The notes below the pieces were generated by a model. The model was not told the origin of the DNA and did not search any database. It saw only the letters and a list, made by a program, of their open reading frames with translations. From a virus, in the IMG/VR virus record IMGVR_UViG_3300032117_000971, positions 1 to 24,989 of that record: a DNA stretch of 24,989 nt; one strand, written 5' to 3'. Positions within the stretch are counted from its first letter, which is position 1, and each line of letters begins with the position of its first letter. A program made the translations under genes and the position numbers. Positions 3,680 to 24,665 of this stretch are shown piece after piece.

Positions 3680-4837
3680 TTAGAAGAATAAGATAGCACC
3701 AGCACTGATAGTGTTTGTGTACTCAACACCGTTGTTAGCACTTGCAGCACCAGTTTCTGTTTGGTGTGCGCGGCTATATTCAGCTACTAAGTTCAAACTC
3801 TTTGTAACAGGTTGATAAGCACCAACTGTCCATGCGCGATCTGTGAAGCTAGCACCATTGTATGTTGCGTTACTTTCGCCCCATGATGCGCCAACTTTAG
3901 TACCAATACCTGGAACTTTGTATGTTGCTTGTACATAACCACCGTTGTCGTTAGTTTTAACGCCACCGTTAGCAATGAAACCAATACTACCTAGACCGTT
4001 TAGGTTAGCGCCAGTTGGGTTAACACCTGACAAACCTTCACCGTTGTAGTAGTAACCTACTAGGTCAGCACCATAAGCTGATAATTTAGTACCAACATCA
4101 AAGCCTTGTGATGTATATGCTTGTGTTGCTGAAGTTGCAGCACGTTGTTGGTAGATACCACTTACCCATGAATGAGTAGCAATACCTGCTACCTTAAGGT
4201 CATATGTTACTTTACCTTGGTAACCAACTTGGCTGTCTGTTTGGTTAGTGTTAACGCCATTTAATGGCTCAACTAACGCTACAGTAGCTTGCGCACCAGC
4301 AAAGTTTGGTGTTGTGTAAGCAATTTGACCTAACCAATCAGCATAGATATAACCTGTACCAATATGGCCATAAGTTGCGTTACCACCTGTACCACCAGCG
4401 ATAGGACCAACGCCTAACAATGTCATATCATTTAAGATAGCATCTGAACCAAACACGCCTAAATCACGACCCATTTTAATTGAGCCCCATGATTTGTCGC
4501 CTGCTGTCATATATGCTTGACGAATGTTTAATGTGTTGTTACCACCTGCTGTGTTAGTACCTGAGCTTGTACCTGTGAAGAATGAGAATTGAACAGCGAT
4601 GTCCAAATCATTCTGACGAGTTTTTGCTCCAATACCAAGTTCAGCTGGAAGTAAACCAGTACCAATGCTGTTTGCAGCACCAGTAGCGTTTTTACCAGTT
4701 GTTGTAGTGTTTGTGTAGAAACTGTTAACGTTACCGCCAACGTCTACTGTCCAATCACCTGCTGGGATAGTGATGCCAGCATTTGCTTGAGTAGCAAATA
4801 AACCAGCCAATAATGTTGCTAATAGAAACTTCTTCAT
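3680..4837 (-). CDS. Gram-negative outer-membrane porin encoded by the phage
   Basis: A 385-residue beta-barrel protein. It has a 20-residue signal peptide (MKKFLLATLLAGLFATQANA, cleaved before GITIP), alternating amphipathic strands rich in Gly, Asn, Thr, Tyr and Ala throughout, and a C-terminal strand ending AGAILFF, the terminal-Phe signal recognised by the BAM complex. Strand segments such as WTVDVGGNVNSFY, SWGSIKMGRDLGVFG and YVQATYKVPGIGTKVGASW fit general-diffusion-type porins of beta/gammaproteobacteria. A ribosome site (AGGAG) lies 10 bases before the ATG. Two superimposed promoters (4888-4916), one of them a T4 late motif, sit about 60 bases upstream, and a terminator follows, so it is a self-contained late unit. 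The complete barrel argues for function: it may alter outer-membrane permeability, replace a host porin or exclude superinfecting phage. It has clear similarity in style to bacterial genes and was presumably acquired from a host. Confidence 0.92.
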   Translation of the reverse strand: MKKFLLATLLAGLFATQANAGITIPAGDWTVDVGGNVNSFYTNTTTTGKNATGAANSIGTGLLPAELGIGAKTRQNDLDIAVQFSFFTGTSSGTNTAGGNNTLNIRQAYMTAGDKSWGSIKMGRDLGVFGSDAILNDMTLLGVGPIAGGTGGNATYGHIGTGYIYADWLGQIAYTTPNFAGAQATVALVEPLNGVNTNQTDSQVGYQGKVTYDLKVAGIATHSWVSGIYQQRAATSATQAYTSQGFDVGTKLSAYGADLVGYYYNGEGLSGVNPTGANLNGLGSIGFIANGGVKTNDNGGYVQATYKVPGIGTKVGASWGESNATYNGASFTDRAWTVGAYQPVTKSLNLVAEYSRAHQTETGAASANNGVEYTNTISAGAILFF

Positions 4838-4970: not shown

Positions 4971-6257
4971 TTAGTATCTATATGTTTCGGGTTTGTATGG
5001 GCCTTCAACAGTTACACCAATATAGTCTGCTTGCTTAGTTGTTAGTTCTGTTAATTCGGCGCCAATCTGTGCTAGATGTAGTTTAGCTACCTTTTCATCT
5101 AGATGTTTAGGTAGTAAGTACATTTTACCAACTTCATAGTTAGCATAGTTTGTGTACATTTCAACCTGTGCCATTACTTGGTTAGTAAAGCTATTTGACA
5201 TAACAAAACTAGGATGCCCTGTAGCACAGCCCAAGTTCACTAAGCGACCTTTAGCTAGAACAATAATCTTACGACCGCTAGGCATAGTGACATGATCCAC
5301 CTGTGGTTTAATTTCGTCCCACTCATAGTTAGCCAAGCTGGCAATTTGGATTTCGCTGTCAAAGTGACCGATGTTACATACAATAGCATTGTTCTTCATG
5401 GCCAACATATGATCATGTGTAATGATATCCACGTTACCCGTAGCTGTTACAAAAATGTCTGCTTTGTCTGCGGCATAGTCCATGGTAACAACTTTGTAAC
5501 CTTCCATTGCGGCTTGTAGGGCACAGATTGGATCAATTTCAGTTACCCAAACCTGCGCACCAAGTGCTTTAAGACTTGCGGCACTACCTTTACCCACATC
5601 ACCGTAACCTGCTACTACCGCTGTTTTACCAGCAATCATAACATCAGTGGCACGTTTGATCGAATCTACTAGACTTTCACGGCAACCGTACAAGTTATCA
5701 AACTTACTTTTAGTTACACTGTCATTAACGTTAATAGCACGTAGTTTAAAACTACCGTTGGCAATTGCTTCGTTAATTTTGTGAATACCTGTAGTTGTTT
5801 CTTCAGTAACGCCGTAGATACCGTCAAGTAGTTCTGGATAGTTAACGTGGATATACCAAGTTAGGTCATGTCCGTCATCCAACAACATATTAGGTACCCA
5901 CCCATCTGGACCTTTAACTGTTTGTTCTAAGCACCACCAGTACTCGTCCTCTGTTTCACCTTTCCAAGCAAATACAGGAATACCTTGATCAGCTAGTGCA
6001 GCCGCGGCATGATCTTGTGTACTAAAAATGTTACAAGAACTCCAACGTACATCTGCTCCTAGGTCAATCAGTGTCTGTACCAATACCGCAGTTTGAATAG
6101 TCATATGTAATGACCCTGTAATACGTGCGCCTTTAAGTGGTTGACTAGCACGTAGTTCTTCACGGATAGCCATTAGGCCTGGCATTTCCGTTTCGGCGAT
6201 TGCTATTTCTTTATGGCCCCACTCAGCAAGGCCAATGTCTTTTACTTTATAATCCAT
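4971..6257 (-). CDS. ahcY: S-adenosylhomocysteinase
   Basis: A full-length 428-residue NAD-dependent enzyme that splits S-adenosylhomocysteine into adenosine and homocysteine, relieving product inhibition of methyltransferases. Catalytic residues are visible: His51 in GSLHMT, Asp128 in LDDGHD, the TEETTTG segment (151-157), Lys183/Asp187 in [10 protein letters not shown], and the NAD-binding GYGDVGKG (217-224). The C-terminus PYKPETYRY is canonical. It lacks the roughly 40-residue insertion before TEETTTG that many proteobacterial enzymes carry; [10 protein letters not shown] runs straight into it, as in the shorter class. DDGHD replaces the more usual DDGGD. AGGAT lies about 6 bases before the ATG. 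It is downstream of the flavodoxin gene region and upstream of the porin. In a window with two methyltransferases and four radical SAM genes, SAM-cycle maintenance is the likely role. Confidence 0.96.
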
Positions 6258-6294: not shown

Positions 6295-6981
6295 TTAAAC
6301 CACATGCTCAATTAAATATTTTTCTAAATTATCAATTAAATATTCTGAATTTGCTTCTTTTTTCGCATTTAAAACCGTATGCGCACCTATTGACCAAGTA
6401 AAGTACGGTTGCATGAATTCATAGCCAACTAGTTCAAATTGTACTTTCATATGACAGGTTAAATTTTCTTCTTTACCAAAATAACTTTCCATAAATTCTC
6501 TACTACCGCCAGTGGTCATTGACATCATCACTCTATGTCCTGTTAAGAATTTGTTGTGTTCTTGTTTGCCACCTTTAGTTTCTACATTGTTTAATGTAAA
6601 CAGTGCGTCATAGGCAAATATATTTTCAATGTATGCTTTAAGTAGTGACGGGTATGTCCACCACCATAACGGACATTGTATGTATAATAGATCAGCTTCT
6701 TTTAACTTTTCTATTTCCTGCTGAGCAAATTTAGGTAATAGATCTGCTTGATTAGCCAATAACCATTTATCAGTGAAGCTTCGTATTTTGCTAGCGATAC
6801 CGGGTAACCAAAAATCACGTTTAAAATTATTTTCTAATCCTCTAGGATCAAACTTAGATCTATATAAATCTAGAGTTTTAACATCATGTCCGTGAGATTT
6901 AAAACAAGCAATAGCACGATCAAACAATGCATGATTTAAACTTATTTTTGCTGGGTGAACCAGTATAGCATAAACTTTCAT
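6295..6981 (-). CDS. Flavodoxin-fold NAD(P)H dehydrogenase (quinone) family protein
   Basis: A 228-residue protein of the Flavodoxin_2 family (MdaB/KefF/NQO1-like). It opens with MKVYAILVHP, has CPLWWWTYPSLLKAYIENIF at 103-122, the typical FMN/FAD and substrate segment, and SMTTGGSREF near 154-163, which matches the flavin-ring loop. Such enzymes pass two electrons from NAD(P)H to quinones or other acceptors in the cytoplasm. Its ATG overlaps the stop of the upstream radical SAM gene by one base (TAATG), the end of a four-gene coupled series. It may therefore supply reducing power to the radical SAM enzyme or desaturase next to it; that is inference. Known members of the family differ widely in acceptor, so a specific substrate cannot be given. 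Confidence 0.85.
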   Translation of the reverse strand: MKVYAILVHPAKISLNHALFDRAIACFKSHGHDVKTLDLYRSKFDPRGLENNFKRDFWLPGIASKIRSFTDKWLLANQADLLPKFAQQEIEKLKEADLLYIQCPLWWWTYPSLLKAYIENIFAYDALFTLNNVETKGGKQEHNKFLTGHRVMMSMTTGGSREFMESYFGKEENLTCHMKVQFELVGYEFMQPYFTWSIGAHTVLNAKKEANSEYLIDNLEKYLIEHVV

Positions 6982-8873
6982 TATAATACTCCTAACAATT
7001 TCTTTTCGCCACGCATGATATTACCAGTATCTAAAAATAATTTGTACATAGATATTAATGAATTTAAATCATTGTGTTTGGTCTTGTTAAAATCAACTGT
7101 ATATATTCCCAGTCTACGCCATTTACCAATGTTGGCACGACTAATGTAAAGTCCTTCTTCTCGTCGATGTACTTTTACAGGTACTTTATAAGTATGTGCG
7201 ATAAATTCTATTAAATGTTTACGGAAGGTTTGACATTTAAAGAATACTAAAGCAATGAAATAGTAGCCGCCATATACTCGATTGCCCATCACGTCAAAGG
7301 TACAATCTTGCGAAGGGTCTGTTAGTATTTCCTGCCAACGGTTAATCACTTTTGTGCATTCTGTCTTACAGTGCTGGTCCTGCATAAAGAAATGATGATA
7401 GATAGTATGTATAATTTCACCATGACCTATGTTGTGATTTTCTCGTATCCAATTGATAGTATCTTTTAAATACCCGCCCTGGACAAATAAGTTATATAAG
7501 CTAGCACTCAATAGCATTTCTAGATAGTCATCCGTAGAGTAGGTGCTAGTACCGACTACTATTTCGTGTTGGGCATGAGACTCAGGATAACTCCACCCAT
7601 TGGTTTTGTTTGTAGTCTTTATTTCCCACTTGCGTCTATAATCAGCACTGTAGCTAGGTGCTTCAGGTAATAATATCCATTCAAACCATTGCAGAGATAA
7701 TCCGTGACTACCAAACACTGTTAACTCATGATAAAACTTATCTAAAGTCATGCCAGGTAATCCCATAATGATTTCTACATATAAAGGTAGCTTAGTATCC
7801 TTGGCTATAGGTTCAAGTACCGCCAGTTGTTTTTCAAACGGAATATTCTTACGATCAATATTTTTTAATATATCGTCATCTAAAGTCTGTAGACTAAGTT
7901 TAATTTCTTTATTGTGGCTAAGATTATTTTTAATGTCTGTTTCTAATATCGATTTAATGATGTCTAATCTATTTTCAGTTTTAGCAAAGCCACCATAGCC
8001 CATTTTAAATGTAGCACGTTGCTCTTTCTTACGTTTAACAACGTAGTTGATAATATCAATATCTCGTTGACCAAATATGCCAAAGTTAGCATCAGCTAGG
8101 TATAGATAGGTAAGATCAAACGTAACTAATACGTCTACTTCTTTTTTAACTGTATGTAGACTTTTCTGTATAACAGTAGTACCGATGCCACCTCCCCAAT
8201 CACAATAGGTACAACCATAAGGACATCCACGTGTGGTTTCAATGATGCTTAACAGCATGCTATCGCTAAAGTTAATTTTTTTGAATGTCTCAAATGCTTT
8301 AAGTTCATCTTGCTGTGCTGTTGCAGCACTGTAGTCATATTGGAATTCTTTGCGTTGAGTTCTAGACATAGACAGTTGACTGCTCAACATAGATCTAGAT
8401 TTACTTGGGTATCTCGTATCAGTTAACTGGCTCCAATCAACTTGACCATCAGAGTAATTGTCTAATAACTCTTTAAAAAACAATTCACCATAGCAGTCAC
8501 CTAAGTGGCTGGCATCTAGGTAAGGGTGTTTCTTAAACCAATCGATATCATGCTTGAGATATTGATGAGGTCCACCACTGACTATTAAGCAATCAGGAAA
8601 TGTTTCTTTAACCCAAGCGGCTATCTCGTGTGCTAGGCCAAAGTTCCAAACATATAAACTAATAGCAAATACATCTGGCTTAGCACGTAGCAATTCATGT
8701 TTAATTTTATCTATGTGACTGGCGTCATAACAGTCAAGATAGCAAGGATACCATTGCCATTGATTTTGATGTCGGCCATGCATTTCATAATAGGTCTTGG
8801 CACTGGCCCATAGTGCTGGTAACCATATCTCACTGCTGAATCTAGGAAAGTTTGCTATGACTATGGTCTTCAT
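6981..8873 (-). CDS. B12-binding-type radical SAM protein
   Basis: A 630-residue protein with a Rossmann-like N-terminal domain of the cobalamin-binding radical SAM type (DVFAISLYVWNFGLAHEI at 67-84; VSGGPHQYL at 98-106) and a radical SAM domain with the cluster motif Cys217-x3-Cys221-x2-Cys224 (RGCPYGCTYCDWGG). Downstream are segments expected of the barrel, including YLADANFGIFG, SLQTLD and VEIIMGLPGMT. The C-terminal 200 residues resemble nothing I can name. No DxHxxG cobalamin motif is visible, which is common in this class, so B12 dependence is uncertain. Its ATG overlaps the desaturase stop (ATGA) and its stop overlaps the flavodoxin start. Family members carry out methylations, ring rearrangements and C-C bond chemistry; the reaction here is unknown. 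It is much larger than the three twitch-type radical SAM proteins at 19.4-23.1 kb and belongs to a different branch. Confidence 0.88.
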   Translation of the reverse strand: MKTIVIANFPRFSSEIWLPALWASAKTYYEMHGRHQNQWQWYPCYLDCYDASHIDKIKHELLRAKPDVFAISLYVWNFGLAHEIAAWVKETFPDCLIVSGGPHQYLKHDIDWFKKHPYLDASHLGDCYGELFFKELLDNYSDGQVDWSQLTDTRYPSKSRSMLSSQLSMSRTQRKEFQYDYSAATAQQDELKAFETFKKINFSDSMLLSIIETTRGCPYGCTYCDWGGGIGTTVIQKSLHTVKKEVDVLVTFDLTYLYLADANFGIFGQRDIDIINYVVKRKKEQRATFKMGYGGFAKTENRLDIIKSILETDIKNNLSHNKEIKLSLQTLDDDILKNIDRKNIPFEKQLAVLEPIAKDTKLPLYVEIIMGLPGMTLDKFYHELTVFGSHGLSLQWFEWILLPEAPSYSADYRRKWEIKTTNKTNGWSYPESHAQHEIVVGTSTYSTDDYLEMLLSASLYNLFVQGGYLKDTINWIRENHNIGHGEIIHTIYHHFFMQDQHCKTECTKVINRWQEILTDPSQDCTFDVMGNRVYGGYYFIALVFFKCQTFRKHLIEFIAHTYKVPVKVHRREEGLYISRANIGKWRRLGIYTVDFNKTKHNDLNSLISMYKLFLDTGNIMRGEKKLLGVL

Positions 8874-9709
8874 TTGGCCATACCTAATCGTAGAAGTTTA
8901 ATCACATAACTACCTAGATCAATTTCAAACCAACGATAACTGTGGCTTTGTTGTTTTATCCAACGCTCACTGTGATGATTATTGTGCAGTGCCGAACTAA
9001 ACAATCCGCAACCTATCAAGTGTGTTATCAGTCTATTATTGCTATTATTAGACACATCTTCGTTCCTATAGCCTAAAAAGCGACTGTGACCCAGGCTGGT
9101 AGTAAGGAATGTGATCATACTGATAATAACACGTCCCATGAACACTACTTTGAATAAGAATATAGGCAACACTAACCACAATATAAACCAATACAATAGC
9201 GTCAATGGTATCTTAAATTCTTCGCAGAAGAATGTCCATGTGTCATCTAATATATCTTTATGTATGATAGATTGCTTAGATACATAAGCATCTCTATCAG
9301 CATAGTCTGTAGGTTTTTGATATAAGAACATCAAAGGGCTTAGGCTACACACGGTGTTCCAATGCCAAGGAAAATATAAATTATCCTGTCCAGGACGATC
9401 TGTCCGAGCATGGTGATTTTCATGATTAACACAGATATTAGTCAACGGACCATTAGCATGATCAACTGTGATCAAAAATGTTAATATCCTATAGGTCAAA
9501 CTACTGGTGTTGATCTTAAACAGATAGTGTGAGCAGATGAGATGTCCAAATAATTCGTTGACCGTAACAGTGTATAGAGTGGCAAGGACATACCAATACC
9601 ATTCGGTATTGATATGTGCCAGGGTCACTGCTAATTCTTTAACGCCAACAATCCACGCTATTGATGTTAAGACAAACAGTGTGATGTTTGTAGGATTAAG
9701 CGTGAACAT
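8870..9709 (-). CDS. Membrane fatty acid desaturase family protein
   Basis: A 279-residue integral-membrane di-iron enzyme. Three histidine boxes are complete: His56-x4-His61 (HLICSH), His96-x2-His99-His100 (HENHH) and His242-x2-His245-His246 (HNNHH). Hydrophobic helices flank them (about 8-33, 38-53, 170-205). The pattern is that of acyl-lipid or acyl-CoA delta-9-type desaturases and related hydroxylases. I place the start at the ATG at 9709, which gives MFTLNPTNITLF; a TTG four codons upstream is possible, but neither has a strong ribosome site. With the ATG it overlaps the oxygenase gene by 14 bases, and its stop overlaps the radical SAM start by four, so the three are coupled. It could alter host membrane lipids or act on a small molecule made with the neighbouring enzymes. 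Confidence 0.87.
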   Translation of the reverse strand: MFTLNPTNITLFVLTSIAWIVGVKELAVTLAHINTEWYWYVLATLYTVTVNELFGHLICSHYLFKINTSSLTYRILTFLITVDHANGPLTNICVNHENHHARTDRPGQDNLYFPWHWNTVCSLSPLMFLYQKPTDYADRDAYVSKQSIIHKDILDDTWTFFCEEFKIPLTLLYWFILWLVLPIFLFKVVFMGRVIISMITFLTTSLGHSRFLGYRNEDVSNNSNNRLITHLIGCGLFSSALHNNHHSERWIKQQSHSYRWFEIDLGSYVIKLLRLGMAK

Positions 9710-10811
9710 GCTTTTTAGCAAAGGCTTTAAAATATCCTAGTAGATCACGTGAAGGTAATTTAAAATTCTTGATACCTGCGATCTTAACAATATGGCGGAT
9801 TTCATTAGCATACTCATTAGCATATGGTTGCTGTAGGTATGGTTGATATGCTCCATCTTGAAGATTAGTATAGTCGTGTGCGATACGATAACATAGACGA
9901 CCTTCAATATTACCTAGTCTGCGATGTAGAGTGATCGAATTATCAAACAACATTAGATCGTTGTTATTCTTATACCAATGATCATAGATATATTTTTCAG
10001 TGAATAGCTCTTTATTGATTCGAGCAAATATTTTATCACTTTCTTGTTTACTCATTCCTTTGATACTATACGCAGTGTTAATACTATAATGTAATCCAAC
10101 AATACCACCAGGACTACGTATGACCATCGGAACTTCTTTATCATCTTCGGGACACATATTAGCATGCATGATAGCATCTTGTTCTTTGTTTAGTCCCGGA
10201 TTGATCTTACCAGGAGTGAATCTATGTAGTAAAATCATTTCATCTAATTCGCTACGGAAACTTTCACTTACACTTTCGTAATAGTCAGGTGTTGTTACAA
10301 ATCCCGTAGCACTACCAATAACATTTTTGTGTGCTAATAATGCTACACCTGGTGTCCAAGTCAATGTGCCGCTTTCGTTGCTATGCCATAATAGCTCTCC
10401 CTCAGCGAACAATCCTTTTGGATTACCATCTTCATCATAGCCACCGGTAACACGACTGACATCATACCCATTATCTGTCTTTTCCTGTGTGCGGAATAGT
10501 GCGCGAATAGCTGTTGCATCTTCGCTGTCTAGATAATCAGCATGTTCTTGAGCATCGTTGACTATGATGGGCCATGGTCTAGAATATTTCTTGATTAAAT
10601 AATTCTTAAGCCCGTAGCGTGTTTCACCAAATTGCAATATACGTTCTGCTAATTGGTCTTTGGTGCAGTTCGTGGCACGTATACAAGTAACTAAATTTTT
10701 AAGATGTAAATGGCCAATTTCTAACCATTGTTCATCGGACAGTGTATTAAAATCTACATCATCAATTATAATACCAAAACGGCCAAGGCCAGGGATTTTA
10801 GATATTTTCAT
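9696..10811 (-). CDS. TauD/TfdA-type Fe(II)/2-oxoglutarate dioxygenase family protein
   Basis: A 371-residue protein of the TauD/TfdA superfamily as found in T4-like aquatic phages. Seen: ELLWHSNESGTLTWTPGVALL (near 139-159), equivalent to the WHTD region; DNSITLHRR (290-298), holding the distal metal His296; and CYRIAHD (307-313) with the 2-oxoglutarate-binding Arg309. The proximal motif is His143-Ser-Asn145-Glu146 rather than the usual His-x-Asp, so the facial triad is unusual: either Glu146 serves as the carboxylate ligand or the protein is altered. AGGAG lies 7 bases before the ATG. It heads a coupled series with the desaturase, radical SAM and flavodoxin genes. Family members hydroxylate, halogenate or desaturate small molecules; the substrate is unknown. 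Confidence 0.85.
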   Translation of the reverse strand: MKISKIPGLGRFGIIIDDVDFNTLSDEQWLEIGHLHLKNLVTCIRATNCTKDQLAERILQFGETRYGLKNYLIKKYSRPWPIIVNDAQEHADYLDSEDATAIRALFRTQEKTDNGYDVSRVTGGYDEDGNPKGLFAEGELLWHSNESGTLTWTPGVALLAHKNVIGSATGFVTTPDYYESVSESFRSELDEMILLHRFTPGKINPGLNKEQDAIMHANMCPEDDKEVPMVIRSPGGIVGLHYSINTAYSIKGMSKQESDKIFARINKELFTEKYIYDHWYKNNNDLMLFDNSITLHRRLGNIEGRLCYRIAHDYTNLQDGAYQPYLQQPYANEYANEIRHIVKIAGIKNFKLPSRDLLGYFKAFAKKHVHA

Positions 10812-15764: not shown

Positions 15765-16511
15765 TTATTTATCTTTACGTTCTATATCATCCTCACCACA
15801 ATAGTCTCCGTACTGTATTTCAACTATTTTACAAGGTTGAGCGAATGGATTGTGTAGTCTGTGCCACTGTTCTGGTTCAACATGATAGTGGTCATGATGC
15901 TGTAGGGTAAAGGTGCGATCATCTAGTTCTACCTGGCACATACCGTAACTAACATGCCAATGTTCAGCACGATTATAGTGCCGTTGCATTGTCAATGTCT
16001 TACCGGGCTCTATAGTAAGTTCTTTAACTTTGGTACCCGCTACATCTTGTAGTACACGATAATAGCCCCACGGACGTTCTGTCTTGGGAGCTTTCCATTC
16101 TTCAAGAATCCAACTACTTGAATTCATTTTGTTTTCGCCACCTACTCCAAATACAAATTCAACATCGGCTTCTGTCATTTCTGGAATATTTTCTGCTGTG
16201 CGATCACCACCGTTGGCAAATATAATTTGGCTATTAGGGTACATAGCTTTGACGTTTCGAATAGCTTCGCGGCTACTTCCGTCATCATCATTAAACAATA
16301 TACAATGACTTACCATCTTAAGATTTTCGATGATATTGATACGCTCTGCACTGGGCATGAACGCACGACCTTTTTTACGAGTCAACCAAGCATCGCTGTT
16401 AATTCCAACTACTAGCATGTCACCTAATGCCCTTGCGGCTTTGAAATAACTAATATGACCACTATGTAAGGGATCAAATCCCCCTGTTATTAACACAACA
16501 CGATTAACCAT
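15765..16511 (-). CDS. Fused cytidylyltransferase-like / sugar-phosphate isomerase-type cupin protein
   Basis: A 248-residue two-domain protein. Residues 1-140 form a nucleotidyltransferase of the RfaE2/glycerol-phosphate cytidylyltransferase type: GGFDPLHSGH (10-19) with the HxGH motif and SSSWI (131-135) equivalent to the ISST motif. Residues 143-245 form a cupin like the C-terminal domain of type II mannose-6-phosphate isomerases/mannose-1-phosphate guanylyltransferases: ERPWGYY (145-151), EPGKTLTMQRHYNRAEHWHV (168-187), WHRLHNP and GEDDIER (239-245). The parts normally lie in separate enzymes, so this fusion would link a sugar- or polyol-phosphate isomerisation to nucleotide activation. 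It overlaps the upstream methyltransferase by 8 bases. It probably makes an activated sugar for the nearby glycosyltransferases; the sugar is unknown. Confidence 0.85.
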   Translation of the reverse strand: MVNRVVLITGGFDPLHSGHISYFKAARALGDMLVVGINSDAWLTRKKGRAFMPSAERINIIENLKMVSHCILFNDDDGSSREAIRNVKAMYPNSQIIFANGGDRTAENIPEMTEADVEFVFGVGGENKMNSSSWILEEWKAPKTERPWGYYRVLQDVAGTKVKELTIEPGKTLTMQRHYNRAEHWHVSYGMCQVELDDRTFTLQHHDHYHVEPEQWHRLHNPFAQPCKIVEIQYGDYCGEDDIERKDK

Positions 16512-18108: not shown

Positions 18109-18350
18109 TTTTCTCTTACTCCAACAGAAATAACTTCTGCCTGTGCTGGCAATACTAAAATTTCAACGTTATTGGGGATAATCATTACCTTGTTATTCGG
18201 TAACAAATATTTAACTTGACGACCAAGTTCTTCCGCTAACGGCATAGTATATGAACTATCTGTGCGGATGATTACGATTTCGTCCGGTTTAATGTTCATT
18301 AATGTTGTTTCTGGTAAGCCTAATGCGTTATCTTCTAAAAATTTATTCAT
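18105..18350 (-). CDS. Small conserved-type protein downstream of uvsX
   Basis: An 81-residue protein from the ATG at 18350. This start was chosen over Met codons 6-7 positions upstream because GAGGAG lies 7 bases before it and only 8 bases of overlap with uvsX result. The sequence alternates strands and turns: DEIVIIRTDSSYTMPLAEEL, QVKYLLPNNKVMIIPNNVEI, VEVISVG-like end. No cofactor, metal or membrane motif is visible. It is the second gene of the uvsX-uvsY unit. Function unknown. Confidence 0.73.
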   Translation of the reverse strand: MNKFLEDNALGLPETTLMNIKPDEIVIIRTDSSYTMPLAEELGRQVKYLLPNNKVMIIPNNVEILVLPAQAEVISVGVREK

Positions 18351-19416
18351 TTTCACTCTCCTCATCAATTTGTGTTGATTCTGTACTTAGCAGTGCAGAA
18401 TTGCCTGATACTTCTTTCATTACTCGATCCAAGCATCCGTCTTCATTCTTTTCCCATGCTTTGCGGAATTTCTTAATACTAGTACCGTCAGCAAATGAAA
18501 ACACTAAACTATTACCTTCTTTTTTAAGTAGGTTTTTAGCTTCGATCATGTCTACCATACCACTGTAAGGACTCATACCAGTTTCATATGGAATCTCTAC
18601 TTGCACCGACTCAAACGGTTTAGCATATCTGGTCTTCATAATCTTACAAGCAGCCCGGATACCGTTAACTGTTGTAGTCTTATTGCCATCAGCATCTGTT
18701 TTAAGTTTAAGTTTACGCATAGCTACAACAATACTTGAAGCGTAGATAAAGCCTTGACCACCTGAAATTTTATCATCTGGGTCAAACATATCTTGACTTG
18801 CGTAAGTATGATTAGTTGCTACTAAACCAATGTTAAGTGTGCCAAACATGTTTACACAGTTACGAACAAGTGCTGTTAGTGCTTTAGGTTTACGACCCAT
18901 ATCACCTTTCATTTCACCCGATTCAAACTGATTAACATCTGTTGGCGTCAACATCATACCTAAACTATCTAAGACAAACAAGACCTTAGGACGATCTTCT
19001 TCTTCTAATGTGCGATACTCTTTAACAAAGTCACTGATAACCTTGGCTACATCGTCAATCATAGCCATATTCAGTTTTAGCAATTTTTCCTCTGAAGTGT
19101 CTACTCCTAACGCATGTAACCAAGCCTCATCAAGCGCATTTTCTGTATCAATTAAGATTACATAAATGCCTTGCTCTTGTGCGTGACGCACAATGTTACC
19201 TGAACAGATAAAACTTTTACCTGCTCCTGATTCACCAGCAAACACTGTTACTTTGCCCATTGGAATACCTTTGTTAAAGTCTCCACTTAATAGGTAGTTT
19301 AGTGTGTAGTTGCCTGTTGAGATCCAATCTGTAGGATCGTTAAAGCCAATGCCCATTCCCGGGATAGCTTTTGTAATTGATTTTCTAAATTTACTAATGT
19401 CGTATGGTTTTGCCAT
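18343..19416 (-). CDS. uvsX: UvsX/RecA-like recombinase
   Basis: A 357-residue RecA-family ATPase that pairs homologous DNA and supports recombination-dependent replication. Visible: Walker A GESGAGKS (61-68), IDTENALDEAWLHALGVD (89-106) with the catalytic-Glu region, Walker B VLFVLDSLGMM (145-155, Asp150), the loop segment GDMGRKPKALTALVRNCVN and ATNHTY (near 201-206), and the KISGGQGFIYASSIVV filament-interface segment. The length is usual for phage UvsX. The C-terminus is acidic (STQIDEESENE). The MAKPYDISKFRKSI start is typical. The gene starts 2 bases before the stop of the upstream radical SAM gene and precedes two small genes and uvsY in one unit. Confidence 0.96.
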   Translation of the reverse strand: MAKPYDISKFRKSITKAIPGMGIGFNDPTDWISTGNYTLNYLLSGDFNKGIPMGKVTVFAGESGAGKSFICSGNIVRHAQEQGIYVILIDTENALDEAWLHALGVDTSEEKLLKLNMAMIDDVAKVISDFVKEYRTLEEEDRPKVLFVLDSLGMMLTPTDVNQFESGEMKGDMGRKPKALTALVRNCVNMFGTLNIGLVATNHTYASQDMFDPDDKISGGQGFIYASSIVVAMRKLKLKTDADGNKTTTVNGIRAACKIMKTRYAKPFESVQVEIPYETGMSPYSGMVDMIEAKNLLKKEGNSLVFSFADGTSIKKFRKAWEKNEDGCLDRVMKEVSGNSALLSTESTQIDEESENE

Positions 19417-19418
19417 GA

Positions 19419-20573
19419 TTATTTGCCCTCTTCTATTAAACTATAAAATTCTTTAAACACTTGTTTACTGTCTAGTCCACGTCTGCGGTCTATTTTAGCA
19501 ATTTCTTCTAAACAATAATCAATATTTTTTACCATTGGTGTTTTTATGTATTGTAACATATTTCTTAGACTATTTTCAAGTAGATATCCAGGTTTTTGGC
19601 TAATCCAGTTTTCTAATTCTTGTTCTACTGTGTATAGCATATGGCTCGGAAGATGTCTAATATTTAAATAATTGGGACTGGTAATTGGTCCAACTACAAA
19701 ACTATTATTATGAAATCCTAATTTTTGTAAGTATCTAATACACTCAAATATTGACATATAATTCAATAGATGATGTAACATATTAAATGATATTTTATGA
19801 TTTAACTCTTTAATAATATCGAGATTATCTAAGAAATCCTGCCAACAACTACCATAGCGAACATATTCAAATTCATGTTCGAGTTCATCAATACTGATTG
19901 TCCAATGTACGTTAGGGAATTCACATATTGCTTCAAATACCCTAGTATCTACTTTACTTAAGTTTGTATTAATACGTAGATTTACATTAAGATTAACCTG
20001 TTTAAGCAATGCCAATAATTCTAAATTTTCTTTCATTAGCAAGGGTTCGCCGCCTGCCATGTAAACGTGTTTTAATTGATGTGCGTTATTAAAGATATAT
20101 TCTTTTAATTCAGCAACACGCTCATCACTAGGTTTGATACTAACTACATCAAGTTCAGCAGCCCATTTGCTAGAATATTCAGGCCCGCAATATATACACC
20201 CAAAATTACACACATTACTCCATCGGATGTCAATCTGATGTAGATCAAAATTATTGACATTGTCGTAGAGATCTTTGTTAACCTCTTTTAACTCTTTGAG
20301 ATAAAACACCCGATCGCTGATAATATCAAAACTTTTTTTATCAAACTCTAAGCTGTAACACCCATAACATCCTATGCCGCCTTTTCGTGCTAGCATATTC
20401 TCTTTAGTTTGTGTATTAGATTCTAATATACTAGTCAGCGGAGAGTCTTTAAGATTGCCAATGGCTGTTTGACTGCGGATACAATTCATAACATCGCCGT
20501 TAGAATTATACATGAATCCAGTCCAAGGGATAGGACAAAAGCTCTTATTAGTTAAATATTCTTTTGAATTCAT
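19419..20573 (-). CDS. Twitch-domain-type radical SAM protein (copy 1)
   Basis: A 384-residue protein with the radical SAM cluster motif Cys122-x3-Cys126-x2-Cys129 (VCNFGCIYCGP) and the SAM-binding GGEP (174-177). Before it is a Cys-containing N-terminal segment: FCPIPWTGFMYNSNGDVMNC (12-31) and CYGCY (69-73), an auxiliary-cluster-like (twitch/SPASM-type) element placed before the barrel. This arrangement is common in uncharacterised phage and cyanobacterial radical SAM proteins. It starts next to a second copy (8 bases downstream of that gene's stop) and ends at the uvsX start. Likely acts by hydrogen abstraction on a sugar, peptide or nucleoside; the substrate is unknown. Confidence 0.87.
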   Translation of the reverse strand: MNSKEYLTNKSFCPIPWTGFMYNSNGDVMNCIRSQTAIGNLKDSPLTSILESNTQTKENMLARKGGIGCYGCYSLEFDKKSFDIISDRVFYLKELKEVNKDLYDNVNNFDLHQIDIRWSNVCNFGCIYCGPEYSSKWAAELDVVSIKPSDERVAELKEYIFNNAHQLKHVYMAGGEPLLMKENLELLALLKQVNLNVNLRINTNLSKVDTRVFEAICEFPNVHWTISIDELEHEFEYVRYGSCWQDFLDNLDIIKELNHKISFNMLHHLLNYMSIFECIRYLQKLGFHNNSFVVGPITSPNYLNIRHLPSHMLYTVEQELENWISQKPGYLLENSLRNMLQYIKTPMVKNIDYCLEEIAKIDRRRGLDSKQVFKEFYSLIEEGK

Positions 20574-20581
20574 TAGTGAAC

Positions 20582-21709
20582 CTATAAATCAATTGGCAAA
20601 TTTATGTTTTTTCGATCTGAGAATTCTTTTAAAAATTCTCGCATTTGAGCATACATTGTTTTATTAAATTTAGAAACTTCAATGGCCCCTATGACCGAGT
20701 CGATACCAGATATCCAACTATGTTCTTGTAGTTTTTTAAATTTTTCAATTATGTTATTCTTTTTGCTATCTATTAATGTATTAAATGTTAAAATATTTGG
20801 ATCGCGGCAATATTCAAATGTCCACTCGAGGTCTGAATACTTTTCTTTAATACTTAACATCAACAAACTAAATTGATCAATATCAAGTACAGTAATACTG
20901 TTCATTAATGATAAAATTTTTACAGTAACATTATTAGGTTTATTCTTTAATAAATGACTAATATTATCCAACATTTTGTTATAATTCATACCAAATCGAA
21001 CAAATTCTGCTAACTTTCCTGTACAATCTAAACTAACTCCTATATGTATATTATCGTATCGTAATGCTAGGTTTAATAATCGATCTATAGGTTCGAATGT
21101 AGGGCATGATAAATTCGTAGTTAACATAAGATTCTTACTAGATACATTCTCTACCAATTTAAAGAAATCTTTATGTCTTAACGGTTCGCCACCAAGCACT
21201 GCTAATGTCTCAAGTTGGTTATATTGATTAACCCACTCAACAATACTATCAAAATCTTTATCATTTTTTTCATCTATATTATAGAAGTCTTTATCAGAAA
21301 ATATTCTATATGGCTTATTCCTAACATCAGTTTCCCACTGACTACTAAATTTTGGATTACAGTATATACATTGGAAATTACATTCGTTGCCTAAACTAAT
21401 TTCAATTTGTTTAGCTTTTGGATTTTTTTGATAATCAGATAGTTGACCCGTAAACTTCTCCAAATATCGGTGACGTTTACTAGTAATTCCTTGATTTTCT
21501 AAATTCCAGCAATAATTGCAACTAGGATCTTGATAACCGTTTAATAATTTATTTTTTTGATCATCTAATACTATAGAAATTTGTTCTTTATTAATAAATT
21601 TTACAGGGACACCTTTACAACATGCGTAGACAAATCCATTTGTTGGATTAACAAGCAATTCATCCCATTTAGCAGGACAAAAAGTTGTTAAATGTTTTGT
21701 TGAATCCAT
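20582..21709 (-). CDS. Twitch-domain-type radical SAM protein (copy 2)
   Basis: A 375-residue homologue of copy 1. It contains the cluster motif Cys110-x3-Cys114-x2-Cys117 (ECNFQCIYCNPKFSSQW), GGEP (173-176) and N-terminal cysteines at 11, 30, 31, 64 and 67 (FCPAKW; YACCKG; CNYCW). The Ser-Ser-Lys/Gln-Trp after the third Cys matches copy 1, but the rest has diverged greatly, so the duplication is old or the copies arrived separately. It is noticeably A+T-rich: a 60-base sample at 20701 has 15 G+C. AGAGG precedes the ATG, which lies inside the SDR gene (22-base overlap). Confidence 0.87.
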   Translation of the reverse strand: MDSTKHLTTFCPAKWDELLVNPTNGFVYACCKGVPVKFINKEQISIVLDDQKNKLLNGYQDPSCNYCWNLENQGITSKRHRYLEKFTGQLSDYQKNPKAKQIEISLGNECNFQCIYCNPKFSSQWETDVRNKPYRIFSDKDFYNIDEKNDKDFDSIVEWVNQYNQLETLAVLGGEPLRHKDFFKLVENVSSKNLMLTTNLSCPTFEPIDRLLNLALRYDNIHIGVSLDCTGKLAEFVRFGMNYNKMLDNISHLLKNKPNNVTVKILSLMNSITVLDIDQFSLLMLSIKEKYSDLEWTFEYCRDPNILTFNTLIDSKKNNIIEKFKKLQEHSWISGIDSVIGAIEVSKFNKTMYAQMREFLKEFSDRKNINLPIDL

Positions 21710-22179
21710 TGATATACCTCTTGAGCATACGTATCTACATTCTGGTACTGCGGTGGCTCTTGTCCTAATTGTGTAGCAACATTTCCTGGTCTAACCATAA
21801 TTTGTCTAGGCCATACATTGCGCTCAGTTAATAACTCTTCTGCTAGTTCCAATGCTTTCTTTTGAATAATATATTCATCCCACTCTCGTTTAAGTGGAAC
21901 TATTATATCAGTCATTTGAGTACTAATATTTACTATTGTTTTTTGCTGCCCTTCCCAACGTCGCCACATTTCAAATAATAATTCAGTCTGAGCAAAACCA
22001 ACTTGAGCATTGTTAATAAACAAGTCACAACATTCGATTACGCCTGCTACTTTAGGTAGACTACGAATGTTATAACCGTTGCGTCGACTTAATGCTACAA
22101 CTTCGTGCCCGTCAGCTTCAAACAGTTTAGCTAATGCTAGTCCAATTCCCGCTGTCCCGCCTGTAATAGCTACTTTCAT
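21688..22179 (-). CDS. Short SDR-family oxidoreductase-like protein
   Basis: A 163-residue Rossmann-fold protein of the short-chain dehydrogenase/reductase family. It keeps the cofactor motif TGGTAGIG (6-13), the NNA motif (56-58), Ser86 and Tyr103-x3-Lys107 (catalytic Tyr-Lys). It is about 90 residues shorter than usual; the segment between the cofactor site and NNA is compressed and the C-terminal substrate loop is small. As the full catalytic set is present, it is probably an active but minimal enzyme and not a remnant. It is coupled to both neighbours: its ATG overlaps the upstream radical SAM stop (ATGA) and its end overlaps copy 2 by 22 bases. An NAD(P)-linked sugar or carbonyl reduction for the cassette is likely. 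Confidence 0.82.
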   Translation of the reverse strand: MKVAITGGTAGIGLALAKLFEADGHEVVALSRRNGYNIRSLPKVAGVIECCDLFINNAQVGFAQTELLFEMWRRWEGQQKTIVNISTQMTDIIVPLKREWDEYIIQKKALELAEELLTERNVWPRQIMVRPGNVATQLGQEPPQYQNVDTYAQEVYQWIQQNI

Positions 22180-23060
22180 TCTATTCCTCGTAATTGCTTT
22201 TGTTGTTGTATGTATGCTAGTGATTCTGGGGTATCTTTATTTTCTACTGCTAACTCAATCGGCTCTTTAAGATAAGCATAACTATTTTCTAGCTTATGTT
22301 CTTTTACAAATTCAAGTATATTAGGCAAATCATCAATATTTAACGCACTAACAGTAGTCCATGTGTTTAGTTTTACAGGCATACTCATATAACGTTGTAG
22401 GTTAGCATAAAATTTATCCCATTTAACCGGATACCGCACAAAATCATGTACTGGGCCTATACCATCTAAACTTACAGTAACAGTAACATGTACTCCTCGT
22501 TCGCATAACGGCCATAATTCTTCTAATACTGTACTACAGTTTGTATTAAGTCTTACGCTACGAATATTTAGAGGCAAGTTAGCCAAGATATGTTTATAGT
22601 TTTTACTATGGCTAGGTTCACCACCATTAATATCTAAGTGTACCACGCGATCCAATGGTAACGACCAAAAAGCATTAGAATTGTCAACTATGGTGTAGTT
22701 TTTACTTTTAAGGCCGCCAATTAAGGTACTGTGGTCTTCGTTACAAGTCAGACATGCGCTGTTGCATATATTATCTAACACGCCGCCCACTGATAGGTAA
22801 TCTTTTTGTTTTTGTAATCTATGAAATTTAATTGCATTAGTACGAATACTTGTGCCGTTTTCTAGTTCAGTTTTCATACAACGTTCGCACTCTACAGGCC
22901 AAATACCTTGTTCCATGCTATCTTTAATTCCAGTTAACCATCCACTAGCATCCATTTCCTCTAGCGAATAAAACTGCGGATTTCTAGTCATATGACCACA
23001 ACGGCTAATGGTACCGTTAGGATTGAGTCTAACAAAATGATCTAGTCTAGGGCAATACAT
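22176..23060 (-). CDS. Twitch-domain-type radical SAM protein (copy 3)
   Basis: A 294-residue, shorter member of the group. The cluster motif is Cys99-x3-Cys103-x2-Cys106 (ICNSACLTCNEDHST), SAM-binding NGGEPS lies at 145-150, and N-terminal cysteines are at 3, 21, 58 and 61 (MYCPRLDHFVRLNPNG; CERC). The barrel segments VSLDGIGPVHDFVRYP (with the family Asp-Gly) and TVSALNIDDLPNILEF are clear. It overlaps the sulfotransferase-like gene by 19 bases and the SDR gene by 4. With copies 1 and 2 it makes a set of three related enzymes that may each act on a different step or substrate of one pathway. Confidence 0.87.
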   Translation of the reverse strand: MYCPRLDHFVRLNPNGTISRCGHMTRNPQFYSLEEMDASGWLTGIKDSMEQGIWPVECERCMKTELENGTSIRTNAIKFHRLQKQKDYLSVGGVLDNICNSACLTCNEDHSTLIGGLKSKNYTIVDNSNAFWSLPLDRVVHLDINGGEPSHSKNYKHILANLPLNIRSVRLNTNCSTVLEELWPLCERGVHVTVTVSLDGIGPVHDFVRYPVKWDKFYANLQRYMSMPVKLNTWTTVSALNIDDLPNILEFVKEHKLENSYAYLKEPIELAVENKDTPESLAYIQQQKQLRGIE

Positions 23061-23644
23061 TGTAATTTTTGAAAAGCTATTTTATCTTGTTGTTTAAGAT
23101 AAGATAAAACTTCATTGAATGTTAACTCCTTACCTATTAGATTTATAAGCAAATTATCTAATCTTATAAACATTTCATAATCTACATTTAAATCAACTGA
23201 TGAGTTATCTTTAAATACAGATAAATTTTTTCCTGTAATGTTTGATATTTCAGACATATCATAAAATCTTAATTTAGCATTAGTATATCTATTTAAATTA
23301 ATTAACCAACTCAATTGTGGAGCATAATGCCTGTTTAAAAATTGATAAGAGTTAGCAAACCATCTAATAGTAGTTAAATCTAAATTAGGATTATCTCGTT
23401 TAGTATTATATACAAAGGTCTGTATACCGGATATTGTACGCTCAGTAGGATTTCTTAGCACCACATCAATTATATCCAACTTAGACAATTGTTGATTTAA
23501 TAAAATCTTACATTTATTTTGTTTGGCATATTCATTGATGCTTGAACTACCATTTTTGTAGATAGGATAGAAATACCGTTGTGAAGCTAACTCAATAACT
23601 TCACAACGGGTTGGATAGATTATTTCATCTAACCTAGATAACAT
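23042..23644 (-). CDS. Sulfotransferase-like protein
   Basis: A 200-residue protein that resembles PAPS-dependent sulfotransferases of the carbohydrate (Sulfotransfer_2-like) group: YPIYKNGSSSI (26-36) matches the 5'-phosphosulfate loop (PKVGSSS type), VVLRNPTERTISG (61-73) matches the 3'-phosphate-binding RdPxxRxxSg, and NRHYAPQLSWL (104-114) matches the usual His-x-x-Pro-Gln. It probably transfers sulfate from PAPS to a sugar, although the family is diverse. It lies directly after gp32 (stop to ATG 4 bases) and overlaps the radical SAM copy 3. Its base composition is strikingly A+T-rich: 60-base samples at 23101 and 23221 contain only 14 and 12 G+C, against 32 in the gp32 sample at 23761. 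This suggests recent or separate acquisition. Confidence 0.72.
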   Translation of the reverse strand: MLSRLDEIIYPTRCEVIELASQRYFYPIYKNGSSSINEYAKQNKCKILLNQQLSKLDIIDVVLRNPTERTISGIQTFVYNTKRDNPNLDLTTIRWFANSYQFLNRHYAPQLSWLINLNRYTNAKLRFYDMSEISNITGKNLSVFKDNSSVDLNVDYEMFIRLDNLLINLIGKELTFNEVLSYLKQQDKIAFQKLQCIALD

Positions 23645-23648
23645 CTAA

Positions 23649-24665
23649 TTACTCAGATGTCTTTTGGCGACTGCGAATCATAGCAAGAATGTCTTGAGCA
23701 TTCTTACCACCGGCTGCTGGGGTAGCAATTGGTGCTGTTGGAGCACTAACTTCTACCTCATCTGCTTCGAATGGAGGATCTTCTGCTACCACTGCTGGTG
23801 CTGGTGTTGCTGGTTGTGCTACAGGTGTAGCAGTTTGAGCTACAGGAGCCGCTTGCGCAGTACCTGCCGGCGCACTAACACCACGTGGGCGATAGTAAGC
23901 ACCCCAACGATCTGTATCATATGCTTGACCATCTACTGATGCTTCAAACATTTCTTTGATAACTTTCAATTCAACATCACTTGGTTTCTTAGGTAAGAAA
24001 TCAGCTAGGTTATACAGACCATTCTTCTCAATAGCTTCTGCTTCATCCGCTGTTAGCGCACTTTCTTTACGTGACCATTTGCTAGTACTATAATCAGCAT
24101 ATCCACCTTTTGATGTTTTGCTAATAGTAAAGTCCAGACCACCTTGGTAATCAGTTGGTAAGTTTTCTAACTCTGGATCAAGCAAGGCTGCTTTAACTAG
24201 GTTAAAGATTTGTGGGCTGATGATAAATCTGCGAATCGGATTTGCTGGTGTTTGGTCATCTGCGATTGGGTTTTCATGTACAAACCCTTGGAACAAGTAT
24301 GATTTCTTTTTCCAATATTTACGACCCATTTCTTCTAAGCTAGGGTCTTTGAACCATGTGCGCACTTCTGCTAACACAGGACATTGTTCGCCATACATTT
24401 CCACGCAAGGTACTTGTACTGTTACTGGTTTTGAATCTGGTTGACCTTTTACACCCGCAAAGGTTAAATTGATCATTAAACGTTCAGCCCAAAAGAATGT
24501 ATTCTTTGGATCTGCGTCTGGTAAAAAACGTACTCTTGCTGAAGTGCCTTCTGGAATGTTCCAGTGAGCGTAGATAGCGTTATCGCCTTGTGATTGTCCA
24601 CCACTTTGACCGCGGTTTTCTTGTGCTTGAAGTTTTGCTCTGATTTCTGCTAATGATGTTGCCAT
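23649..24665 (-). CDS. 32: gp32-type single-stranded DNA-binding protein
   Basis: A 338-residue protein resembling T4 gp32 of aquatic T4-like phages. The N-terminus MATSLAEIRAKLQAQENRGQ is a basic-helical start before a glycine/glutamine-rich link; the core holds WNIPEGTSARVRFLPDADP (35-53), VPCVEMYGEQCPVLAEVR (85-102) and IRRFIISPQIFNLVKAALLD (144-163). Only Cys87 and Cys95 are present in the zinc region where T4 has His-Cys-Cys-Cys, so a zinc ribbon seems incomplete, as in related aquatic phages. Residues 263-320 are a Pro/Ala/Thr linker with acidic patches, ending in a short NAQDILAMIRSRQ helix that could recruit UvsX, UvsY or helicase. AAGGA precedes the ATG. It coats single-stranded DNA in replication and recombination. 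Confidence 0.9.
   Translation of the reverse strand: MATSLAEIRAKLQAQENRGQSGGQSQGDNAIYAHWNIPEGTSARVRFLPDADPKNTFFWAERLMINLTFAGVKGQPDSKPVTVQVPCVEMYGEQCPVLAEVRTWFKDPSLEEMGRKYWKKKSYLFQGFVHENPIADDQTPANPIRRFIISPQIFNLVKAALLDPELENLPTDYQGGLDFTISKTSKGGYADYSTSKWSRKESALTADEAEAIEKNGLYNLADFLPKKPSDVELKVIKEMFEASVDGQAYDTDRWGAYYRPRGVSAPAGTAQAAPVAQTATPVAQPATPAPAVVAEDPPFEADEVEVSAPTAPIATPAAGGKNAQDILAMIRSRQKTSE

Follow-up and report, generated by a model that had tools for sequence, protein, structure and literature searches.

In bacteriophage T4, an intrinsic terminator follows gene 32. Cassettes of radical S-adenosylmethionine (SAM) genes have been described in pelagimyophages (PMC7029224), where they likewise vary between related phages; in contrast to the locus reported here, these are other phages with cassettes at another genomic place, and the parts of that article at hand describe neither a pairing with sulfotransferases nor an RNA element. 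Here we analyse a virus record of 24,989 bp (IMGVR_UViG_3300032117_000971; "the window", i.e. the whole stretch of DNA), in which five open reading frames (ORFs), all on the minus strand, lie between the genes for a gp32-like and a uvsX-like protein. They encode a sulfotransferase-like protein (ST), three radical SAM proteins (rS3, rS2, and rS1), and a short protein similar to short-chain dehydrogenases/reductases (mini-SDR). The gp32–uvsX interval serves as a hotspot for cargo genes in a clade of uncultivated jumbo phages, because empty intervals, intervals with four of these genes, and intervals with other inserts are all found, and the site is empty in the closest relative. The block behaviour of the four-gene unit and the existence of an RNA hairpin after gp32, taken alone, are very likely to be correct.

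The borders are formed by a gene for a gp32-like single-strand DNA-binding protein upstream (23649..24665, minus strand, as for all features given here; phrog_1192, E = 1e-66) and by a uvsX-like recombinase gene downstream (18343..19416; phrog_97, 1e-70), as the initial annotation had proposed. ST (23042..23644, 200 amino acids (aa)) is the first cargo gene and is followed by its partner rS3 (22176..23060, 294 aa), mini-SDR (21688..22179, 163 aa), rS2 (20582..21709), and rS1 (19419..20573, 384 aa), the partner of mini-SDR. From gp32 to uvsX, the recomputed spacing is a gap of 4 nt, overlaps of 19, 4, and 22 nt, and gaps of 8 and 2 nt, which reproduces the arrangement reported initially.

The closest relative (L309; gp32 96% and uvsX 99% identical) has only a 45-bp spacer at this site, which is replaced in the window by an inserted stretch of 4,224 bp (19421..23644). 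A blastn comparison showed that the flanks of the insert are 93.8% and 94.3% identical in the two sequences. Because other loci had been found through the cassette itself, a cassette-independent sample was assembled through gp32 and uvsX. It was limited to the 80 top-scoring matches per scan, and the frequencies are therefore those of this sample and not of the whole clade. It contained 129 complete intervals, 35 of which are empty (<200 bp), 23 carry all four genes ST, rS3, mini-SDR, and rS1, one carries ST and rS3, 65 carry other inserts, and five carry only other known insert genes. Neither mini-SDR plus rS1 alone nor a single core gene was found in any of the 129 intervals. All four genes are thus present in 23 of the 24 intervals with any core gene, or in 21 of 22 when the eight intervals from contigs fetched twice are removed and 121 contigs remain. 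The other inserts at this site include another mini-SDR, radical SAM proteins, SGNH-like proteins, and unknown proteins.

Viral scans with rS3 yielded 52 contigs, and those with ST, rS1, and mini-SDR yielded at least 415, 586, and 588 related stretches, respectively. The core arrangement recurs in hundreds of viral contigs and is therefore not due to chance. In the contigs found through the cassette, gp32-ST-rS3-SDR-rS1-uvsX is the repeatedly mapped order, and optional inserts encode 2-oxoglutarate (2OG)-oxygenase-like, SGNH-like, other radical SAM, and unknown proteins. The assignment of one optional gene as a 2OG-oxygenase is based on an HxD...H...R pattern recognized by eye; it had no Pfam support and was not retained. 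The initial annotation treated all five genes as one set. ST, rS3, mini-SDR, and rS1 do travel together, whereas a close rS2 relative occupies the rS2 slot in near-identical contigs only; rS2 is a local addition, and the reading as a single unit of five genes was rejected for this reason.

Within the block, two adjacent modules can be distinguished. In some loci their order is swapped (gp32-SDR-rS1-ST-rS3-uvsX), and ST-rS3 is also found without SDR-rS1. For 39 distinct loci, we calculated correlations of protein distances controlled for the gp32 and uvsX distances. The values are 0.305 for ST-rS3 and 0.277 for SDR-rS1 (permutation p 5e-4 for each), compared with 0.11-0.23 for pairs across the modules, and this ranking supports ST+rS3 and SDR+rS1 as the modules.

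Among cultured jumbo phages, Phosso, Atu_ph07, and Vibrio phage 2.275.O have no insert at this site: the gene before uvsX closely abuts it, and only in the Vibrio phage is this gene annotated as a single-stranded DNA-binding protein. A tblastn search of cultured phages with uvsX matched 2,194 records, and searches with ST, rS1, rS3, and mini-SDR had no match, for mini-SDR even at E = 10, in a search mode that may be insensitive.

The spacers of empty intervals contain a strong hairpin, with an energy of −6 kcal/mol or lower in 35 of 38 cases. A hairpin with an energy of at most −12 kcal/mol is found no more than 140 nt from the gp32 stop codon in 206 of 208 distinct loci, compared with 31-54% after seven other genes under the same criterion. 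In the window, a scan for terminator-like structures placed the counterpart of this hairpin inside the coding sequence of ST (23576..23609; CCGTTGTGAAG ... CTTCACAACGG; 14 pairs). Where ST adjoins gp32, the hairpin is located within the ST ORF, inside the first ~25 codons, in 92 of 103 cases; in the other 11 it lies upstream of or across the ST start, often where ST starts late. When mini-SDR or an rS2-like gene is next after gp32, the hairpin occupies the spacer instead. In several further loci (L321, L339, L420, L445, L380, and others), the first cargo gene is an unrelated one that likewise appears to encode the hairpin in frame, within the first 120 nt after gp32.

For 71 ST genes, codons were redrawn such that the same protein was encoded with the codon use of the same gene. 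Compared with these redraws, the hairpin energy had a z value below −2 for 59 of them, with a mean of −3.8, i.e. it was far lower than the protein sequence requires. Genes with weak values mainly do not lie beside gp32 (L153, L157, L159, L172, L214, L103, L110) or have a later start; the starts of L085 and L109 were misread, and L099 is a genuine exception. In 42 ungapped ST homologues, 94% of the cells of a 12-pair stem can pair, compared with 30-51% for slid controls. The stem has 43 cells changed on both sides, whereas shuffled alignments have 15.3 ± 5.9 and none of 500 shuffles reached 43. The structure was chosen after the sequences had been viewed, and the shuffles leave relatedness in, a weakness of which the sliding and codon controls are free. 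Two-sided changes are confined to three pairs of the stem (columns 9/45, 12/42, and 18/36), a number of pairs no higher than in shuffles, as would be the case if the protein constrained the remaining positions. All three pairs join third codon positions on both sides; because the changes are thus from wobble to wobble position, the protein does not explain their coordination.

Taken together, an RNA element after gp32 that is retained and encoded within ST is well supported. Its stem is strong and conserved, and the ST-embedded version has a moderately U-rich tail; Rfam had no match in the window. It resembles the T4 gene 32 terminator in that a GC-rich hairpin directly follows gp32 in empty relatives, and differs in that it also occurs within the reading frame of the next gene, with covariation at wobble positions. 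The location 3′ of gp32 suggests that expression of the cargo may be below the gp32 level rather than equal to it.

Like known sulfotransferases (Sulfotransfer_2 and annotated phage proteins), ST has motifs that resemble those for binding of 3′-phosphoadenosine 5′-phosphosulfate (PAPS). Homologue alignments identified a 5′-phosphosulfate-binding-like loop, YPIYKNGSSS, with the invariant K30 (23540..23569), and a 3′-phosphate-binding-like motif, VLRNPTERTISGIQT (23417..23461), which includes LRNPTERTISG. All 71 homologues carry K30, R64, R69, G73, H106, Q110, W113, and D163, and at least 90% carry S72. ST thus contains both elements expected of a sulfotransferase, i.e. a phosphosulfate loop with a Lys (PIYKNGSSS) and a 3′-phosphate motif of the form R..R..S. 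An AlphaFold2 model of ST (pLDDT 84) matched a phage protein annotated as "Sulfotransferase family" in BFVD (E = 4e-14, TM-score 0.85), and further viral proteins named sulfotransferase in this viral fold library matched more weakly; this is support from annotation to annotation, which is weaker than an assay. Among the 71 homologues, 21 have weak Sulfotransfer_2 matches at E ≤ 0.1 (best 0.0023). ST differs from known sulfotransferases in its length of only 200 aa, the weak Pfam scores, and the lack of a significant match to solved structures. An ST profile had no match in the PDB sequences, and Sulfotransfer_2 had none in the ST region of related contigs. It also had none in 144 genomes of the phylum of the Bdellovibrionota centre, in which the control was silent as well. 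An APS_kinase-like domain of three large relatives was considered as a source of PAPS; it is a fusion with an NMN-adenylyltransferase-like domain (e.g. L266:9927-10763), scores far below the apsK cut-off, and was not counted.

The three radical SAM proteins match most of NF033640, the NCBIfam model "twitch domain-containing radical SAM protein" (N_Twi_rSAM). With a curated cut-off of 170 bits, rS1 (241 bits, 2e-71) and rS2 (197 bits, 6e-58) are above the threshold, and rS3 (130 bits, 1e-37) is below and is therefore called N_Twi-like only. They share an N-terminal twitch region with four Cys and a CxxxCxxC core, and the latter and the GGEP motif are intact in all three, as noted in the initial annotation. 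The core motif is located at 22743..22766 in rS3 (C99, C103, C106) and at 20187..20210 in rS1 (C122, C126, C129), invariant in the respective alignments, and at 21359..21382 in the rS2 sequence. The twitch cysteines are also invariant (C3/C21/C58/C61 in rS3 and C13/C31/C69/C72 in rS1). Because the N-terminal domain of rS1 has a fold match to the C-terminal twitch of BtrN, the twitch precedes the radical SAM core in rS1. The AlphaFold2 model of rS3, a short protein of this type (pLDDT 85), matches MoaA (6e-7), SkfB, BlsE, SuiB, EpeE, anSME, and viperins. In contrast to the family model, which carries no function, rS3 is about 90 residues shorter and the phage members pair with ST or mini-SDR. 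Relatives of the genes thus co-travel and the radical SAM proteins share one family; the initial annotation had made its single-pathway idea depend on these two points. Mini-SDR contains TGGTAGIG, NNA, S/T, and YxxxK within its 163 aa, compared with ~250 aa for a full-length SDR. TGxxxGIG, NNA, and Y103xxxK107 are invariant or near-invariant in its alignment, and the Ser position is mostly Thr87. It is named SDR-like because it is short and below the adh_short cut-off (24.4 versus 26.6 bits; 2e-5).

All eight larger related contigs contain NF033640 genes, several of them with 10-16 matches. The 357-kb relative has 16, 10 of which are above the cut-off, including several in tandem at 318-325 kb; in L265/L266 (316.4-324.8 kb of the related contig), N_Twi radical SAM genes are arrayed in tandem between tail-fibre-like and sugar-tailoring genes. 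The surroundings of the run at 318-325 kb encode proteins recognized as SGNH-like by eye, together with a carbamoyltransferase, a DegT aminotransferase, and an NDP-sugar epimerase; a second ST-like gene of the 357-kb relative lies ~2 kb from an rS1 paralogue. Bacterial relatives of the cassette proteins are distant (~25% identity) and mostly from Bdellovibrionota, whose genomes have 10-37 NF033640 matches. Their radical SAM islands contain GT2 glycosyltransferases and DegT, SIS, and PfkB proteins, and they resemble the related jumbo phage in many N_Twi radical SAM proteins, a carbamoyltransferase, a mini-SDR, and other families; they differ in that no ST-like protein was found there.

Several further genes were observed in the window and in related phages. 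The window encodes a porin-like protein with a signal peptide (3680-4837, minus strand), and the 357-kb relative also has a porin-like gene (60726-61955) and solute-binding-like proteins. A B12-binding radical SAM protein (KedN5-like), a desaturase-like protein, and a TauD-like dioxygenase are encoded consecutively (6981-10811, minus strand). At 15765-16511 (minus strand), a cytidylyltransferase-like domain is fused to a mannose-6-phosphate-isomerase-type cupin, and this fusion is conserved downstream of uvsX in many relatives. An N_Twi radical SAM gene adjoins a Rad50-like (gp46-like) gene in L263 (14601-17666), and the related jumbo phage encodes a tryptophan-halogenase-like protein (L252:17146-18720; PF04820, 3e-86). 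The window also contains a complete adenosylhomocysteinase gene (4971-6257, minus strand; TIGR00936, 5e-183); in a genome rich in SAM-using enzymes, its product would recycle S-adenosylhomocysteine.

We propose that the hairpin would end or attenuate the gp32 transcript, so that the cargo and uvsX would be produced by read-through, and ribosomes moving from the gp32 stop codon into ST could unfold the hairpin. A sugar or glycan precursor may be the substrate of the twitch radical SAM enzymes, which would oxidise or epimerise one of its carbons; mini-SDR may reduce or oxidise a carbonyl or hydroxyl group, and ST is predicted to transfer sulfate from PAPS. The resulting glycan, on the host surface or the virion, would be unusual and partly sulfated. 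Glycan tailoring is the leading function, because radical SAM genes of related contigs lie among sugar-tailoring genes and the Bdellovibrionota relatives lie beside glycosyltransferases; it is unproven and a weaker inference than termination or attenuation at the hairpin. The sugar or surface product suggested initially thus receives indirect support, from gene context in the related phage contigs and the bacterial islands. As a whole, the chain of a four-gene cargo at a hotspot, attenuation by a hairpin, and tailoring of a sulfated glycan is plausible, though somewhat short of probable. A more far-reaching version is rather doubtful, i.e. that post-gp32 cargo is selected to encode the hairpin, so that RCE...SQR, a conserved part of ST, is owed to the RNA, that a translation-sensitive attenuator sets cargo and uvsX versus gp32 levels, and that the glycan tailored by radical SAM enzymes and sulfated is a new one.

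Several observations weigh against this explanation. ST of the window itself had no Sulfotransfer_2 match in the family-model search, and its fold had no significant match in the PDB, although 16 of the top 50 hits are sulfotransferases nonetheless. A profile comparison with bacterial Sulfotransfer_3 proteins gave no signal, with templates that were partly wrong reading frames. The four-gene unit contains no glycosyltransferase, and there is no substrate evidence. The sugar-related gene context was observed in related contigs and distant bacteria, and it is suggestive only, because neighbours as far as 20 kb away were counted and the counts have no statistical background. Termination is a guess, as the tail of the ST-embedded hairpin is only moderately U-rich. 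Lastly, DNA-repair and polymerase genes adjoin some of the radical SAM genes in the 357-kb relative, an arrangement that would fit a role in DNA.

Such a role, in which DNA or nucleotides would be modified in connection with the replication genes, would agree with the position of the cassette between gp32 and uvsX, with other radical SAM genes of the 357-kb relative that follow uvsX or flank a Rad50-like gene, and with an rS1/ST paralogue pair in the vicinity of genes for a DNA-polymerase-like and a GDSGGFQ protein. The latter appeared DNA-transglycosylase-like by eye, but the TGT family model was negative and this idea was dropped; the hotspot also holds unrelated cargo, and we know of no sulfated DNA bases. 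We consider a role in DNA decidedly improbable. Modification of a protein or peptide is unlikely, though less so: the radical SAM proteins would act like SPASM/twitch maturases of ribosomally synthesized and post-translationally modified peptides (RiPPs) on a virion or host protein, with ST sulfating a side chain. SkfB, SuiB, EpeE, and anSME are among the fold neighbours of rS3, and the invariant ST motifs are compatible with many acceptors. However, the non-peptide enzymes BtrN and BlsE are also fold neighbours, the wider context is sugar-rich, and the abutting cassette includes no precursor peptide, so that a RiPP pathway was set aside.

The presence of viperins among the rS3 fold neighbours, together with sulfotransferase-like, SDR, and optional 2OG-oxygenase-like genes that resemble tailoring sets, would also be compatible with small-molecule or defence chemistry, i.e. 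a modified metabolite acting on the host or on competitors. This is highly unlikely, as rS1 and rS2 score only weakly against the viperin family model, far below its cut-off, and the unit has no regulator, transporter, or core synthase. Alternatively, the genes could be co-mobilised cargo without a joint pathway, in line with the many inserts taken up by the hotspot, the local addition of rS2, and modules that can separate or swap order. The near-perfect all-or-none occurrence of the four genes and the stronger covariation within modules make this quite improbable.

In the literature searched, we found no description of a pairing of N_Twi radical SAM, sulfotransferase-like, and mini-SDR proteins, and no cultured representative was found. 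The locus indicates that twitch radical SAM enzymes paired with such proteins form a pool yet to be explored. It also represents a clean case of foreign metabolic genes plugged into an essential replication operon with retention of its RNA element, which the first cargo gene carries in its own codons.

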